Notes under the pieces: model-generated
Database searches by the model: none
Seen by the model: only the letters and a program-made list of their open reading frames with translations
What the model was told of the DNA's origin: nothing
Source: Aquipseudomonas guryensis
GTDB taxonomy: Bacteria > Pseudomonadota > Gammaproteobacteria > Pseudomonadales > Pseudomonadaceae
Assembly: GCF_014164785.1 (NCBI RefSeq)
Contig: NZ_JACJFN010000002.1
Span: forward strand, 434,001-498,000
Reading direction: 5' to 3'
Length of the DNA: 64,000 nucleotides
Translations under genes and position numbers: made by a program
Shown here: piece after piece, positions 36,366 through 41,928 of the stretch
Position numbering within the stretch: position 1 is the stretch's first letter
How the letters are laid out: each line of letters begins with the position of its first letter

Positions 36366-37316
36366 ATGCTGAGTAGAACTGCCTCCGATCTGTACTGGAT
36401 GTCGCGCTACCTGGAGCGCGCCGAGAACCTCGCGCGCATGCTCGACGTCAGCTATTCGCTGTCGCTGATGCCGCAGGACGGCCGTGGCGACGGCATCGAC
36501 GAACTGGCCATGCCGCTGTTGATCACCGGCACCCTGGACGACTACCTGGAACGCCACGGCGAGATGCACGCCGAGCGCATGCTGCACTTCTTCGCTCTGG
36601 ATGCAGACAACCCGGCGAGCATCTACTGCTGCCTGCAGGCCGCGCGTACCAACGCCCACGCCGTGCGCGGACGCATCACCGCCGACATGTGGGAGAACAT
36701 CAACGCCACCTGGCTGGAGATGCGCGGCATCGCCGCCCAGGGCCTGGGGCGCTACGGCATCAGCCGTTTCTGCGAGTGGGTCAAGGAGCGCTCGCACCTG
36801 TTCCGCGGCGCCACTTTCGGCACCATCATGCGCGGCGAGGCGTATCGCTTCATCCGCCTGGGTACCTTCCTCGAGCGCGCCGACAACACCTTGCGCCTGC
36901 TCGACGCACGCTACGAGATGCTGGGCGAGGAGGCCGATGCGGTCAGCGACACCTCGGCGCGCGGCTACTACCAATGGAGCGCGCTGCTGCGTGCGCTGTC
37001 CTCCTTCGAGGCCTTCACCGAGATCTACCGCGGCTCACCGCGCACCCGCAAGATCGCCGAACTGTTGCTGCTGCGTCCGGACGTACCGCGTTCGCTGCGC
37101 TCGTGCATGGAAGAACTCAACCTGATGCTTTCCGGCCTGCCCGGCGAGAACGGCCGCCCGGCCCAGCGCATGGCCGCCGAGCTCGACGCGCGCCTGCGCT
37201 ACACCAGCATTGACGAGGTCCTCGATGAGGGCCTGCATGTCTGGCTTACCGATTTCATCCTGCTCGTCCGGCAGTTGGGCAGCTCCATCCACACGTCCTA
37301 TCTGGAGGTCGTATGA
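36366..37316 (+). CDS. Alpha-E domain protein
   Basis: This 316-residue, almost all-helical protein starts MLSRTASDLYWMSRYLERAENLARMLDV, the signature opening of the alpha-E (DUF403) family. It contains the inner repeat FIRLGTFLERADNTLRLLDARYEML. It nearly always accompanies the ATP-grasp and transglutaminase genes found here on either side. Biochemical role unknown. It overlaps the next gene by 4 bases (ATGA). Confidence 0.93.
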   Translation: MLSRTASDLYWMSRYLERAENLARMLDVSYSLSLMPQDGRGDGIDELAMPLLITGTLDDYLERHGEMHAERMLHFFALDADNPASIYCCLQAARTNAHAVRGRITADMWENINATWLEMRGIAAQGLGRYGISRFCEWVKERSHLFRGATFGTIMRGEAYRFIRLGTFLERADNTLRLLDARYEMLGEEADAVSDTSARGYYQWSALLRALSSFEAFTEIYRGSPRTRKIAELLLLRPDVPRSLRSCMEELNLMLSGLPGENGRPAQRMAAELDARLRYTSIDEVLDEGLHVWLTDFILLVRQLGSSIHTSYLEVV

Positions 37317-38107
37317 GACTCTCGATCCGTCACGACACCACCTACAACTACGATGACCAGGTGCGTTCCAGCATCCAGTACCTGCGCCTGACGCCGCAGG
37401 AGAGCGTGCGCCAGCACGTGCTCAGCTGGCAGCTCGACCTGCCGCGCGCAGTGCGTGCCCAGCGCGACCCGCACGGCAACATCCTGCATGTACTGACCCT
37501 CGATGAACCGCACGAAGCCCTGGTGATCGGTGCCCGCGGCCAGGTCGAGATCGACGAACACTGCGAATCCGAAGGCGACAACCACTCGGCTCTGCCATAC
37601 CTGCGCTTCACCAGCCTGACCCAGCCGGACGACGCCCTGTACGACTTCGCCCAGGCCAGCAGCGCCGGTCGCCGCGATCGCGACAGCCTGATCAGCCTGA
37701 TGCACGGCCTGCACGAGCAGATGCCCTATACCCCCGGCGCCACCAAGGTCGACAGCACCGCTGCCGAAGCCTTCGCCGGCCGCGCCGGGGTCTGTCAGGA
37801 CCACACCCATGCCTTCCTTGCCTGCGCCCGCAGCCTGGGCGTGCCGGCGCGTTACGTGTCGGGCTACCTGTTCACCGAAGACAGCGGCCACCTGGCCAGC
37901 CACGCCTGGGCCGAAGCTTGGCTGGATGACGCCTGGTACAGCTTCGACGTGACCAACCAGCTGTCCCGGCCGGAACGTCACCTCAAACTGGCCGTCGGCC
38001 TGGACTACCTCGACGCCTGCCCGGTACGCGGCATGCGCCGTGGTGGTGGTGGCGAGCAGATGCATGCACGGGTCAAGGTTTCGCCGTTGCTGCAGGTGCA
38101 GCAGTAG
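37313..38107 (+). CDS. Transglutaminase-like cysteine protease family protein
   Basis: This 264-residue protein has an N-terminal bacterial transglutaminase-like beta domain (MRLSIRHDTTYNYDDQVRSSIQYLRL) and a catalytic core. The triad is Cys161 (GVCQDHTHAF), His197 (SHAWAEAW) and Asp212 (YSFDVTN). There is no signal peptide, so it acts in the cytoplasm. With the ATP-grasp and alpha-E proteins it may make and trim, or ligate, a small peptide (inference from family context). Third gene of the sigma-54 operon. Confidence 0.93.
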   Translation: MRLSIRHDTTYNYDDQVRSSIQYLRLTPQESVRQHVLSWQLDLPRAVRAQRDPHGNILHVLTLDEPHEALVIGARGQVEIDEHCESEGDNHSALPYLRFTSLTQPDDALYDFAQASSAGRRDRDSLISLMHGLHEQMPYTPGATKVDSTAAEAFAGRAGVCQDHTHAFLACARSLGVPARYVSGYLFTEDSGHLASHAWAEAWLDDAWYSFDVTNQLSRPERHLKLAVGLDYLDACPVRGMRRGGGGEQMHARVKVSPLLQVQQ

Positions 38108-38191: not shown

Positions 38192-38677
38192 CTAATCCGC
38201 CCGTAGAGGGCGCACCGGTGCGCCATGGACAACCCCCAGGCTCTGGATGCCCGTCAGGTCCGAGAATGAGTACTGGCCGGAAAAACCGCTCGGGGTGATC
38301 CGGCCTTGAATCTCTATGTAGACGTCACAGAAATTCGCTGTGAGGTTGAGGGTCAGCACGCTGCCTTGCACGTGATAGGCCGCCTCATCCGGCGTAAATC
38401 CAGGGCTGGGTTGCGTTTGTTGGTCGAGTAGGACGACCTTCTTCCAATTACCGGGCGTGCACGTGTCAGCAGGCTCGTCTGTGAATCTGAGCGTGACCGA
38501 TCTGAGCCGGTGGCCATTCAAGTCGGAAACCACGAACGCCCACGGCTTGGCAGCCCATGAGGCAAACTCCTGTTGGTTTTTCCCGGCGGGGTAATCAGCC
38601 GCGGGCCCGACTGAGCCTGGGGTGGGCGCGCAGCCTGCAAGTGTCAGCAGCACAAAAGGTGATACGAGAGCCTTCAT
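38192..38677 (-). CDS. Lipoprotein of unknown function
   Basis: This 161-residue protein starts at 38677 (MKALVSPFVLLTLAGC), with lipobox LAGC and lipidated Cys16. The mature protein is predicted beta-rich and has cysteines in DTCTPGNW and NFCDVYIE that may pair. I do not recognise the family. It lies between core genes and the kinase-like gene at the start of a block with weaker codon bias, and may be a recent acquisition. Confidence 0.7.
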   Translation of the reverse strand: MKALVSPFVLLTLAGCAPTPGSVGPAADYPAGKNQQEFASWAAKPWAFVVSDLNGHRLRSVTLRFTDEPADTCTPGNWKKVVLLDQQTQPSPGFTPDEAAYHVQGSVLTLNLTANFCDVYIEIQGRITPSGFSGQYSFSDLTGIQSLGVVHGAPVRPLRAD

Positions 38678-38724
38678 GGATGAAGCTAGGATGTATTGGC
38701 TGCCGGCCCGTTTCTCCCTGGGTT

Positions 38725-39231
38725 TCATTTAGCATCCAGCCGCGAGAGGAGCGCCGTGACCAGCGCTTCTGGTGGGGCTGATACATCAAGCTCCTCTCCT
38801 AGGCCGCTATTGGCGCGGGCATACAGAGCTTCACGCTCCTCCATGACGGTGTGCCGTTCAAACGCCTGCTCATCAAGAGCGCGCGCACTCTGGCGTACTT
38901 CAATTCGCCGAAGGTTCTCTTGCAGCGGCAGTGTGAGCAGAAAGGAGCGGATATCCGCTTCTATATGGCTGAGTCTGCGACACAAATCGTCGAGATCATC
39001 CGGCGTGCGCCAGATATGGTTGATCACAAAGTTTCGATAGCCGTGACTCTTGTGATGTTCGATCAAGAAAGACAGTGCCGTATGCAGGTATTCCACTTCG
39101 TTGGGCGGCGGCGGGTTCATGGCTATTACATGATCACCATCCAGCATTACACAGTGGTCTATTTCCTCCATGAGTGCTTCGGCGAGTGTTGATTTTCCTA
39201 TTCCCAGTGGGCCGTTGAGGATAATGATCAT
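38725..39231 (-). CDS. P-loop NTPase, small-molecule kinase-like
   Basis: This 168-residue protein has Walker A GPLGIGKST at 7-15 and a short kinase-like core (DHCVMLDGDHVIAMNPPPP..). Such AAA_33/zeta-like proteins phosphorylate nucleotides, antibiotics or other small molecules. The substrate cannot be inferred here. Codon use is less GC-biased than in flanking core genes, and it may belong to the accessory block to its right. I see no attC site at either end. Confidence 0.75.
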   Translation of the reverse strand: MIIILNGPLGIGKSTLAEALMEEIDHCVMLDGDHVIAMNPPPPNEVEYLHTALSFLIEHHKSHGYRNFVINHIWRTPDDLDDLCRRLSHIEADIRSFLLTLPLQENLRRIEVRQSARALDEQAFERHTVMEEREALYARANSGLGEELDVSAPPEALVTALLSRLDAK

Positions 39232-39492: not shown

Positions 39493-39525
39493 TGCGCTCA
39501 GGGCCTAGCGCACTTCGCTAGGCGT
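39493..39525. terminator. Double hairpin at the end of the B-box gene
   Basis: GCCTAGCG / CGCTAGGC with a 5-base loop overlaps the gene's stop. Next to it CCTGA / TCAGG flanks TGCGC. This may be a rho-independent-like end without a T-run, or a collapsed recombination site. The first bases on the minus strand, GCCTAGC, are one base off an attC R'' box (RYYYAAC). Confidence 0.4.
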
Positions 39526-39886
39526 CATAGTTGGTGGTGATTTTCTTAAAGTACTTTGTGTTGTAGATGATAATTGCCAAGCCGAAAGTGAAAAATCCGG
39601 CGCCTAAAACTATTAAGAAATTACTGCTGCTGCTTTGAATTCCGAAAATTATAAAGGCAAGTCCGGTAAATATATTAAAGATAGGGCCGAACAAGGAAGC
39701 TGTAGGTGAGGATGAGTAAGCTTTCTTGGTATTTTGCAGAAGACTGTTAAGGTGAGTGACTTCTGCTTCATGCACACCCTTGCAGGCAAGTCCGTCCTTT
39801 AAGTCTGTGCAGCAATCAACGCATAGGGCGCGCTGACAGTGTTTGCAGATTCCGATTGCTTCTTTGGGGTGATTAAAGCACTGCAT
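39518..39886 (-). CDS. B-box zinc-finger membrane protein, likely cassette gene
   Basis: This 122-residue protein starts at 39886 (MQCFNHPKEAIGICKHCQRALCVDCC). The N-terminal Cys/His cluster (C3, H6, C14, C17, C22, C25, C26, then C36 and H39) fits a B-box-type zinc site. Two TM helices follow (about 64-83 and 90-112). The coding sequence is clearly AT-richer than the core genome. It lies downstream of an attC-like site in the same orientation as two cassette genes. Function unknown. Confidence 0.8.
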   Translation of the reverse strand: MQCFNHPKEAIGICKHCQRALCVDCCTDLKDGLACKGVHEAEVTHLNSLLQNTKKAYSSSPTASLFGPIFNIFTGLAFIIFGIQSSSSNFLIVLGAGFFTFGLAIIIYNTKYFKKITTNYDA

Positions 39887-39899
39887 GGTTCTTCCTTGA

Positions 39900-39975
39900 T
39901 GTTTGATGATTAAGTTGATGTGCCGGCTTGGCGATCCCGGCGAGTAGAGTGAGCGCTTTGAGCGCATAGTTAGGT
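39900..39975 (-). other. attC-like recombination site, degenerate right half
   Basis: Read on the minus strand, it opens with R'' ACCTAAC (39975-39969), then TATGC and GCTCAAAGCGCTCACTC. That last stretch is nearly the same as the matching part of the attC at 40393-40467. An imperfect inner stem (CCGGGATC..AAGCCGG) follows. The expected R' GTTRRRY is not recognisable. It begins 10 bases after the stop of the upstream cassette gene. Confidence 0.6.
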
Positions 39976-39985
39976 GTGATCTGGA

Positions 39986-40384
39986 CTAACATCCACCGCT
40001 ATGAAATAGGCCGCACGCGGTGTTGATAACAACAAAGCCCCCGAGATACCAAAGCCCGATAGCGCCAATGACTCCGCATGAGGCAGCAATCGGAAGCGAG
40101 AGCCTACTGCGATGCGACAAGAAACCCAGCGAGATGAAGAAGGCTGCGAGCGGCAACCCAACTATGATGAGCCTAGAATCACCAAAACCATACAGGACAT
40201 CGATGCTAAGGGTTCCAATGACGAGGAGTTGGAACGCAAGAAGCGCGACCCCCATGGCGAGCGCTGTTGCCGAGATTGCCCTGTGCATTCTCTTTCGGAT
40301 AGAGGGTACGACGCCTACGGCAATAAGCAGCACAATAGGTACTGTGGCCAGCAAGAACGCCGCGAGGGGGCTTGCGAAGAGCAT
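39986..40384 (-). CDS. Four-TM membrane protein of unknown function, cassette gene
   Basis: This 132-residue protein is mostly hydrophobic, with about four TM helices (near 5-27, 36-60, 71-88 and 99-122) and a small Arg-rich loop (RKRMHR). It begins 8 bases after the R' box of an attC and ends 10 bases before the R'' box of the next, which is the compact layout of an integron cassette. No recognised family. Confidence 0.8.
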   Translation of the reverse strand: MLFASPLAAFLLATVPIVLLIAVGVVPSIRKRMHRAISATALAMGVALLAFQLLVIGTLSIDVLYGFGDSRLIIVGLPLAAFFISLGFLSHRSRLSLPIAASCGVIGAIGLWYLGGFVVINTACGLFHSGGC

Positions 40385-40392
40385 GAATGGAC

Positions 40393-40467
40393 ACCTAACA
40401 CTTTGTTAAGGGGCCGGTTTTAGCCGGTCCCTGTGAGCGAGTGGGCGCTTTGAACGCATTGTTAGAT
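40393..40467 (-). other. attC recombination site (integron cassette)
   Basis: On the minus strand the 75 bases read R'' ATCTAAC, spacer AATGC, L'' GTTCAAAG, an imperfect inner stem-loop (GACCGGCTAAAACCGGCC), L' CTTAAC, spacer AAAGT and R' GTTAGGT. R'' fits RYYYAAC and R' fits GTTRRRY. The outer boxes are complementary with one mismatch. The stop codon (TAA) of the upstream gene lies inside R'', as is common in cassettes. Confidence 0.85.
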
Positions 40468-40779
40468 ACCGTAATCACGCTCAACTCTTGAAATTCTTAC
40501 CTTGAAAGATGAATACCACTTCTCGTGGCCGGTTTTCTGGGCCTCTTGGTGCTCAATATTGAGTTTCCAATTTCTTATGGATTCTAGGTCTGACCAGTAC
40601 GATACAGTTATGCCTAGATCTTCTCTTGCAGACTCTACTCCCAAGTACCCAGGCTGCTCGCTTGCTAGCATAAGCATGTTGGATGCTGTTTCAGAATAGC
40701 CATTGTCGCCCTCAGTTCGTAGCGATGTAAAAATTACAGCGTAATATGGTGGTTCTGGAGTTTTTGCTATGGTCGACAC
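40462..40779 (-). CDS. Antibiotic-biosynthesis-monooxygenase (ABM) domain protein, cassette gene
   Basis: This 105-residue protein is of the ABM/EthD-like dimeric ferredoxin-like fold (YYAVIFTSLRTEGDNGYSETA..EQPGYLGVESAREDLGITVSYW). I chose the GTG at 40779 because AGGAAA lies about 5 bases upstream and family members start here. An ATG at 40830 would add 17 residues overlapping the cassette boundary. Its TAA stop is within the attC R'' box. ABM proteins of this sort are frequent cassette cargo. Substrate unknown. Confidence 0.85.
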   Translation of the reverse strand: MSTIAKTPEPPYYAVIFTSLRTEGDNGYSETASNMLMLASEQPGYLGVESAREDLGITVSYWSDLESIRNWKLNIEHQEAQKTGHEKWYSSFKVRISRVERDYGI

Positions 40780-40827
40780 GATGCTTTCCTGAAGGTAGTT
40801 AACTAAAGTTAGGTGGCATTGCTGTCG

Positions 40828-40834
40828 CATAACA
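40828..40834 (-). other. Possible cassette boundary (R'-like GTTATGC)
   Basis: On the minus strand GTTATGC lies about 50 bases upstream of the ABM start. It differs from GTTRRRY at one position, though GTTAT- junctions do occur. It may mark the upstream end of the cassette. No full attC or attI is visible beyond it. Confidence 0.3.
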
Positions 40835-41109
40835 TCCGATAGGGCGTCGGGTAATGTTCTTGTCTATTTTGTAACGCTCTGATTTTTCATTCCCAACTAG
40901 AGCAAATACGACAATGCGGCTGGTAATGAGCGACAGTGGCTTTCCGCCGTACACCGCAGGACAGGTTCAGGCCAGATATTTCAGATGGCGAAGGCGAGTT
41001 GTGGTGGGTTTGGGCATTCCTGGCCTCTGTCGATTTCCGTTGTTGCTGTTGCCACGCTAGCGTCTGTCGCTTGGCGGGTAAAGCCTGGGCAGGTGCTGGG
41101 CTGCTCTTC
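40835..41109. other. Intergenic stretch right of the cassette block
   Basis: These 275 bases hold no supported gene, integrase fragment or attI site. An open plus-strand frame that runs into the cytochrome gene is antisense shadow. This is where an integron integrase would be expected if the platform were complete. Confidence 0.5.
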
Positions 41110-41928
41110 CTAGTGTTCGGTTTTGCGCGTGGACATGTGGCGCAGGTAACCAATCAGTTGCTCGAGCTGGCTGTCGCTGATAACGCTTTCGCTGAAAGCC
41201 GGCATTCGCCCTTGAGGCCAGCGCCGCAGGCTCTGCGGATCACGAATGTACTGCCGCAAAAAATCCCCTGCGAAATACTCCGTTGGGTTATGCGGAATAT
41301 TCAGATCGGGCCCGAACTGCGAATCCCCCGCACCATTCAGGCGGTGGCAGGCCAGGCAGTTTTTCTGGAACTGGGCGAAGCCGGCCTGCACATCGCCATT
41401 GGCGTTCGCTGCGGGGAGCAGGGCAGGGAAGCGTTTGGCGACTGCTTCCAGCAGGCGGATGCGGGAAACCTGGAACGGCCACTGTTCCGGCCCGATCTGC
41501 GCCGCTTCAGGGTTTTGCCAGACCAGGTAGAACGGCCCCGCGCTGGGTTTGCCTTCGGCCAGTGCAGGCCAGGGTTGTTGTGGGTCTTCGATGGCCAGCC
41601 AGGCGCGCGCGCCTTTGGTCGCCAGCAATGGCGCGGCTGGCAGTTCGGCAGCAAAACCGTCGAGGGCCACTGCCTGCAAGTGGTCGCCTGGGGCTACGCC
41701 CTCCAGCAGTACCACCAGGGGAATGGCGCGGTACTGCATGTCGCGCTTGTAGGCCACGTCGGCGCTGATGCTGATGGTTTCGGTCTGGGGGTGGCTGAGC
41801 AGGCTGCTGCTGTTCCAGGTGCGCGTTCCGCTAGGCAGTTCTATGTGCAGTTCGGCGGCATGCGTGGTTGCAGCGTGCAGGCTGGCCAGTAATGCCAGGC
41901 TGGAAAGTGCATTCAGCAGTCGACGCAT
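41110..41928 (-). CDS. Periplasmic c-type cytochrome with N-terminal beta domain
   Basis: This 272-residue protein has a signal peptide (MRRLLNALSSLALLASLHAATTHA). An N-terminal beta-rich domain of about 150 residues resembles the molybdopterin-less sulfite-oxidase-like domains seen next to cytochromes (FYLVWQNPEAAQIGPEQWPFQV). The C-terminal cytochrome c has the haem motif Cys191-x2-Cys194-His195 (CLACH) and probable axial Met242 (GRMPAF). It overlaps the upstream rhodanese gene by 16 bases, so the two form an operon. Role in periplasmic sulfur or redox chemistry is inferred. Confidence 0.88.
   Translation of the reverse strand: MRRLLNALSSLALLASLHAATTHAAELHIELPSGTRTWNSSSLLSHPQTETISISADVAYKRDMQYRAIPLVVLLEGVAPGDHLQAVALDGFAAELPAAPLLATKGARAWLAIEDPQQPWPALAEGKPSAGPFYLVWQNPEAAQIGPEQWPFQVSRIRLLEAVAKRFPALLPAANANGDVQAGFAQFQKNCLACHRLNGAGDSQFGPDLNIPHNPTEYFAGDFLRQYIRDPQSLRRWPQGRMPAFSESVISDSQLEQLIGYLRHMSTRKTEH

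Follow-up and report, generated by a model that had tools for sequence, protein, structure and literature searches.

A short gene-cassette array behind an orphan attI-like site on the chromosome of Aquipseudomonas guryensis

The cassette array and its attC sites

The stretch of Aquipseudomonas guryensis DNA analyzed here (the window) is the 64,000-nucleotide segment spanning positions 434,001 to 498,000 of contig NZ_JACJFN010000002.1 (G000:C2:434001-498000; the host genome G000 amounts to 4.29 Mb in 7 contigs). It contains a short array of integron gene cassettes that has no adjacent integrase gene and directly follows a degenerate attI-like site (Table 1). The three genes of this array, all on the minus strand, were originally predicted to be AT-richer than their surroundings, and both the gene coordinates and the composition agree with that prediction: the G+C content is 0.484 for positions 39493-40834 compared with 0.627 for the whole window, and a value as low or lower is found in 3 of 1254 same-length sliding windows (step 50, overlapping ones included). 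A Pfam search detects similarity of the gene 1 product to the ABM domain with an E-value of 2.1e-4 (21.8 bits, just under the cut-off of 23.1) and a weak similarity of the gene 3 product to zf-B_box (E-value 0.0083, also under the cut-off), whereas the 132-amino-acid protein with four transmembrane segments (4-TM) has no Pfam match at E ≤ 0.1. The ATG at 40830 falls outside cassette 1. An Rfam search of the window identifies only a tRNA.

Table 1. Features of the cassette array and its flanks, in window coordinates
Feature	Position	Strand	Remarks
attI-like platform, orphan, degenerate	40803..40940	-	left limit approximate
Cassette 1 (ABM)	40399..40802	-	from the G^TTAACT start to the G of attC1 R'
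Gene 1, ABM-like protein, 105 amino acids	40462-40779	-	GTG start chosen by us
attC1, intact	40393..40467	-	hidden Markov model (HMM), E-value 2.7e-11; folding
Cassette 2 (132-amino-acid protein)	39907..40398	-	borders given by attC1 and attC2
Gene 2, hydrophobic 4-TM protein, 132 amino acids	39986-40384	-	
attC2, decayed	39901..39975	-	HMM, E-value 3.5e-11 over 39906-39974; comparison with G176
Cassette 3 (B-box-like)	39518..39906	-	homologous cassette in G176
Gene 3, B-box-like zinc-finger membrane protein	39518-39886	-	
Inverted repeat GCCTAGC-7 nt-GCTAGGC at the expected place of attC3	39503..39523	-	read from the sequence against G176
Cytochrome c gene, conserved left flank of the platform	41110..41928	-	
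Two overlapping genes, AAA-type kinase and lipoprotein-like protein	38192-39231		between the array and the transglutaminase-like gene; no attC
Transglutaminase-like gene (presumed), conserved right flank	37313..38107	+	

The attC sites were sought with an HMM that was built from sequence alone and searched with nhmmer; its 30 training sites all lie outside the window (23 in the host genome and 7 in genome G028), and the RNAalifold consensus of the attC alignment contains 3 pairs only. Since no training site comes from the window, the two sites detected there, at 40394-40466(-) and 39906-39974(-), are independently supported, the next best match having an E-value of 0.49. The 75-base attC predicted behind the ABM gene and the second, degenerate one are thus both recovered. 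The boxes of attC1 are R'' ATCTAAC, which contains the TAA stop codon of gene 1 as predicted, and R' GTTAGGT, so that the AAC and GTT characteristic of attC are in place. The bottom strand of this site folds better than the top strand (-14.2 vs -11.7 kcal/mol, with z values of -2.99 and -2.14), in agreement with the single-strand folding of attC; for single attC sites, the predicted folds resemble the canonical hairpin only in part, and the same applies to the array controls. A comparison of attC1 with the host genome yields 39 other matching places with 76-88% identity (40 of 58 candidates scored), and 27 matches to TAACAATGCGNTCAAAGCG, allowing 3 mismatches at most, occur in the genome vs none for the reversed control. 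Both window sites belong to the same family as the attC sites of the host integron.

The second site, attC2, retains ACCTAAC (R'') and the L'' block, but its R' is ATCAAAC (39907-39901) where the homologous G176 cassette has GTTAGGC, so that the GTT is lost. Behind gene 3, the attC HMM finds no site; the inverted repeat at the expected place is possibly a collapsed attC in which R''-like and R'-like boxes have been brought together. Another short inverted repeat, ACCTAAC/GTTAACT at 40797-40814, also resembles a collapsed attC; it overlaps the attI core, and the resemblance may be a coincidence.

Genes 1 and 3 can be recognized as cassettes because their homologues are located between attC sites in other Pseudomonas genomes, namely, a 77% identical homologue of gene 1 in G069 (L126) and an 82% identical cassette with gene 3 in G176, with attC on either side. 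The ABM cassette of G069 (L126 944-1243) contains an in-frame TAA. Relatives of the ABM gene are present in 154 of 298 genomes, the host included, and adjacent attC sites are seen in the host and G069, the contexts inspected. The B-box gene has matches in 5 of 298 genomes at E ≤ 1e-5, with high identity in the host and G176 only, and three distant paralogues (32-33%) in other arrays of the host. At the species level, the three genes do not stay together at the locus: the 4-TM gene is found in 1 of 298 genus genomes, that of the host, and three species carry other first cassettes.

The attI-like site at the cytochrome c locus

The window contains no intI, as originally noted; the genome nonetheless encodes a complete one at C2:3077-4021 (522.7 bits), about 470 kb from the window cluster, which is the sole match to TIGR02249 above the cut-off in the genome. 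This gene is accompanied by an attI, which ends ...GTCGTCTACTTATAG^TTAGGC, and adjoins rimO (a name that we assigned from the sequence). The attC profile (E ≤ 1e-3) detects 6 sites behind intI, reaching the contig start, and further ones at the start of C3 (27), at C3 529-537 kb (17) and at the start of C6 (20); these array counts are per contig location, given that arrays at contig ends may join one another.

The statement that the window lacks an attI has to be revised. A degenerate attI-like site ends at 40803, with the insertion point G^TT between 40803 and 40802 directly upstream of cassette 1, so that this cassette is joined at G^TT (G40803^T40802); the sequence at the joint is ...ACCTAACTTTAG^TTAACT, and upstream are TGTCGC at 40935-40930 and TGTCG at 40913-40909. 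An attI model built from six sites (R2), in which attC sequence was not used, matches positions 40800-40866 with an E-value of 8.5e-15, the window site being a member of its training set.

Sites of this kind follow the same cytochrome c gene in the window, in Pseudomonas sp. R-28-1W-6 (L056, genome G404), in Pseudomonas sp. 8AS (L060, G405) and in G338 (L209). In L056 and L060 the platform reads ...GTCGTCTAATTATAG^TTAG and is followed by other cassettes. Over 66 nucleotides (nt), the platforms of L056 and L060 are identical at 61 of 66 positions and those of the window and L060 at 48 of 66. In the last 20 nt, the window differs from the intI-linked attI at 7 positions, G338 at 3, and L056 and L060 at 1 each; comparison of the 66 nt with the host attI is equalled or beaten by 3 of 1000 shuffles for the window and by 0 of 1000 for L056 and L060. 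Homology to intI-linked attI is therefore established mainly through the orthologues L056 and L060, the window itself sharing 13 of 20 core positions, and the window site is best read, as far as the sequences indicate, as a worn member of an orthologous attI-like set.

The first cassettes at the four platforms encode the ABM protein and proteins of 177, 132 and 141 amino acids, which are unrelated (blastp, E-value 0.01) except for a marginal match between the ABM and 177-amino-acid proteins (E-value 0.007 over 50 amino acids). L056 has three attC sites and then the contig end; in L060, the attC is broken past its first bases; the G338 locus encodes products of 141, 146, 171, 111 and 88 amino acids with four attC sites, followed by more genes, including a B-box relative, and then the transglutaminase-like gene. 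No intI is detected within about 1.4 kb upstream of the four sites (tblastn, E-value 0.05), a search that as a control returns one downstream match, in L230, with an E-value of 7.9e-5. In all four genomes (G404, G405, G338 and the host), intI is located elsewhere; for example, one contig of Pseudomonas sp. 8AS bears the cytochrome c platform (1,882,478) in addition to the intI-linked attI (1,690,236) and a third site (2,405,205), with an attC content of 0 or 1 per site by this profile. The window and G338 are 86% identical in the 3' half of the site (66 nt), 84% in its 5' part, 88% in the flank and 92% in cytochrome c. Different first cassettes next to a site and flank of 84-88% identity suggest that cassettes were exchanged after the split, with intI elsewhere in both genomes.

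These comparisons bear on the possibility that IntI inserted the cassettes off target, at an unrelated chromosomal attG site. Insertion at attG sites has been reported for Escherichia coli (Loot et al. 2024, as cited in PMC12901181, PMC11023631 and PMC12444791) and likewise places cassettes away from intI. The 7 differences in the 20-nt core of the window would fit such a site, and so would a fourth array head in the host, at a contig end (C2:859490-859528; L170 7490-7528), whose similarity to attI is confined to the 20-nt core and which may be a nascent or attG-like platform. An attG recipient would be unrelated to attI and attC; the recipient in the window is instead attI-related and common to several species, matching same-locus sites in three of them, two of which share 19 of 20 core positions with attI, and the orphan sites described below have motifs in common over about 140 nt. 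We consider off-target insertion highly improbable at this locus.

Orphan attI-like sites in the genus

The R2 model has matches in 92 of 398 genus genomes at E ≤ 0.01. More than 150 matches were listed and 72 examined, namely, the top site from each of the 30 genomes with the highest scores (L174-L203), 40 more with E-values of about 2e-7 or better (L204-L243; one match in this range, G239:C198, was left out), the host C3 site and the window. The stretches retrieved around these sites vary in length, and some stop at contig ends. Directly upstream of 16 of the 72 sites lies intI or a remnant of it; the other 56 are orphans, counting L199 and L242, which show weak N-terminal intI matches where intI would start (tblastn E-values 0.001 and 0.003). 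A same-strand attC is found within 2 kb downstream of 46 of the 56 orphan sites, compared with 1 of 72 in the upstream control; when 4 training sites are excluded, 68 sites remain, and 44 of the 54 orphans among them have attC. As attC took no part in the attI model, this association is independent evidence. Comparable orphan attI-like sites followed by attC thus recur across the genus.

Adding L056 and L060 and removing one duplicate gives 58 orphan sites, which represent about 40 gene contexts; a first clustering of contexts, which split known orthologous loci, was replaced. Some contexts are shared by several species, as with the cytochrome c locus, present in four, and a LysR locus, present in three (G000, G338 and G265). 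For intI-linked sites such a count is trivial, since intI itself links them; rimO is present in the retrieved stretch of 9 of the 16. Of 49 genomes in which intI was sought, almost all of them selected because they carry attI-like sites, 28 have a match at E ≤ 1e-60, and in 23 of these it is the only one. For example, G338, a single contig, carries one intI and six attI-like sites, and the five sites that were followed have 4, 2, 6, 6 and 3 attC behind them. In two large single-contig genomes, G213 (L202) and G274 (L224), there is an attI-like match with no intI at E ≤ 1e-60 and no attC downstream in the stretch; these matches may represent relics or palindromes that arose by chance.

An alignment of 52 orphan sites reveals motifs in common from about -140 to the joint, namely, TGTCGC near -137 and -114, AAGG..TTA near -80, GACAAGGAACGTTAT near -65 and TGTCGCCTACTTATAG at the joint. 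The TGTCGC repeats are candidate IntI-binding sites. A G^TT-like joint was located by script in 71 of 75 sites, and the remaining ones (L224, L234, L238 and L243) were left out of the profiles. The equivalent of the orphan block in intI-linked copies extends from the intI start codon (our choice of start) to the first cassette. An automatic division of the sites into types A, B and C misassigns at least L209 and L225, so that type counts are not used as evidence. A type A attI (L009:2919-2990) contains a long palindrome with a strong single-strand fold (bottom -13.7 vs top -11.6 kcal/mol), a hairpin that could let IntI treat attI somewhat like attC.

A block of this kind might instead be a promoter or a dispersed palindromic repeat behind which cassettes are kept by selection for expression. 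Type A copies are indeed palindromic and fold strongly, and such a block would cover any cassette promoter. By its position, however, it is attI, given that in intI-linked copies it forms the gap between intI and the cassettes, and the cassettes join on the same G^TT-like joint in 71 of the 75 sites. This explanation appears hardly credible.

In some genomes, an orphan attI and the intI-linked one share 97-98% identity over their last 66 nt but differ in the sequence immediately upstream. Such pairs are L124/L174, L207/L208, L186/L215 and L213/L211; the genomes concerned are the host (C3 and C2 copies), G013, G383 and G193. On sequence grounds, this similarity looks like copying or gene conversion. 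A test of genome-wide homogenization, in which 59 of 2000 permutations reach the observed value, is a weak one, with 35 sites called type A and at least two of them misassigned. That the attI module is copied to new loci and homogenized within the genome, one integrase serving the platforms in trans as a distributed integron, is a tentative proposal that we hold to be doubtful.

Origin of the array and relation to known systems

The observations on the window array are probably best explained by a short array, decayed in part, that occupies a conserved orphan attI platform, with the IntI encoded near rimO serving such platforms in trans. From the architecture described above (the sites, their borders, their recurrence and the position of intI), we infer recombination in trans, locking of cassettes and spread of attI copies to new loci. 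Under this scheme, IntI made near rimO would excise cassettes and deliver them to orphan platforms in trans as well as to the attI beside its own gene, so that a single integrase would have supplied several arrays. Cassettes 2 and 3 are probably locked now, because attC2 is without its GTT and attC3 is gone, whereas cassette 1 retains plausible borders. With its worn core, the window platform itself may be losing function and be on its way out.

Several observations weigh against this explanation. The degeneracy of the window core, which differs from attI at 7 of 20 positions, lowers confidence, and the upstream 46 nt by themselves score close to chance (for the window, L056 and L060, 26, 48 and 109 of 2000 shuffles, respectively). 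In the close pair formed by the window and L209, the platform is not better conserved than the flank (86% vs 88%), and the contents of the cytochrome c platforms are not wholly unrelated: the B-box relative in G338 is 37% identical, and one protein pair of L056 and G338 41% identical (blastp, E-value 0.01). The fourth array head of the host matches the attI core in 19 of 20 nt but has a different sequence upstream. No attC lies within 2 kb of 10 of the 56 orphan sites (among these, L225 is near a contig end, and the attC of L177 lies beyond its stretch). No sigma-70-like promoter is found in the attI-like module in a scan of 40700-41110, the single weak site detected being within cassette 1. 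Of the genomes searched for intI, 21 of 49 have none at E ≤ 1e-60, 6 of these 21 being single contigs (two of the 21, G147 and G398, contain a broken or cut intI under the threshold).

The genomes that carry attI-like sites and no intI match also fit the main rival explanation, loss of intI from formerly complete integrons at this and other loci, with attI and a few cassettes left behind and no service in trans. The conserved orphan block ends at about the intI start codon of the intI-linked copies, a cut or broken intI lies beside some attI sites (L175, L176, L188, L198 and L217), the weak matches in L199 and L242 may be remnants, and decay has affected attC2, attC3 and the core of the window platform. 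Against such loss, the tblastn search finds no intI within about 1.4 kb upstream of the four cytochrome c platforms, and the orphan sites occupy about 40 contexts, whereas 9 of the 16 intI-linked sites have rimO. The different cassettes of the host and G338 on the same platform suggest exchange after the split. We regard intI loss as unlikely, if far less so than insertion at an attG site.

As to known systems, an integron cassette cluster without an integrase (CALIN) is usually defined as having 2 or more attC sites and no intI (PMC9024848). The window array qualifies, having two attC sites, one of them decayed, and no adjacent integrase; like other CALINs, it is chromosomal, with IntI encoded elsewhere in the genome. 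The original classification as a CALIN stands in these respects and is incomplete in others, as it takes in neither the attI-like platform that heads the array nor intI and attI of the same genome nor the related platforms in the genus; the definition cited refers to attC and the absence of intI. As a CALIN, the array represents a known type; what is new is the orphan attI. The origin of CALINs is described as debated, with off-target insertion, loss of intI and rearrangement among the proposals (PMC8618304, as far as the cited passages go).

A complete integron has intI adjacent to attI, which is not the case at the window locus. The sedentary chromosomal integron of pseudomonads shares with the window array the attC family, an attI-like docking site and small genes of unknown function but has its intI near rimO, whereas the window locus is one of several platforms and lacks intI. 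In Xanthomonas, about half of the genomes have CALINs, which lie apart from intI at a small number of recurring loci and resemble the window array in being integrase-less and in occupying the same loci across species (PMC12444791); the cited part of that report mentions no attI at these arrays, whereas at the window locus an attI-like site could explain the fixed position. The delta-attI gene cassettes of mobile integrons similarly have an attI sequence away from its intI, within a cassette according to the portion of the source used here (PMC12901181), whereas the attI-like site of the window heads a chromosomal array.

Among the open-licence papers listed in literature searches, no report of an integrase-less attI heading chromosomal arrays was found, early Pseudomonas integron work in subscription journals lying outside the scope of these searches. 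Many integrase-less clusters in the genus are headed by an intI-less attI-like site, which would explain their recurrence at fixed loci and would make integrons multi-site systems. IntegronFinder is described as detecting no attI outside class 1 (PMC9024848, cited passage), and because common software ignores such sites, attI-headed clusters could be overlooked elsewhere.

The segment between the array and the right flank, the gene at 37313..38107 that we take by name to be transglutaminase-like, contains the two overlapping genes listed in Table 1. These (38725-39231 and 38192-38728) were considered as further cassettes and rejected, as there is no attC behind either; the AAA gene of this region is found in 1 of 19 genomes searched, that of the host. 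In Pseudomonas sp. 8AS, the transglutaminase, alpha-E and ATP-grasp genes, which adjoin the array in the window, are located about 0.52 Mb from the cytochrome c gene, and the two blocks are each near an attI-like site of their own (L280 19875-19805, which is G405 C4:2405205, and L278). This layout has the appearance of a chromosomal rearrangement in which each break end bears a cassette platform.

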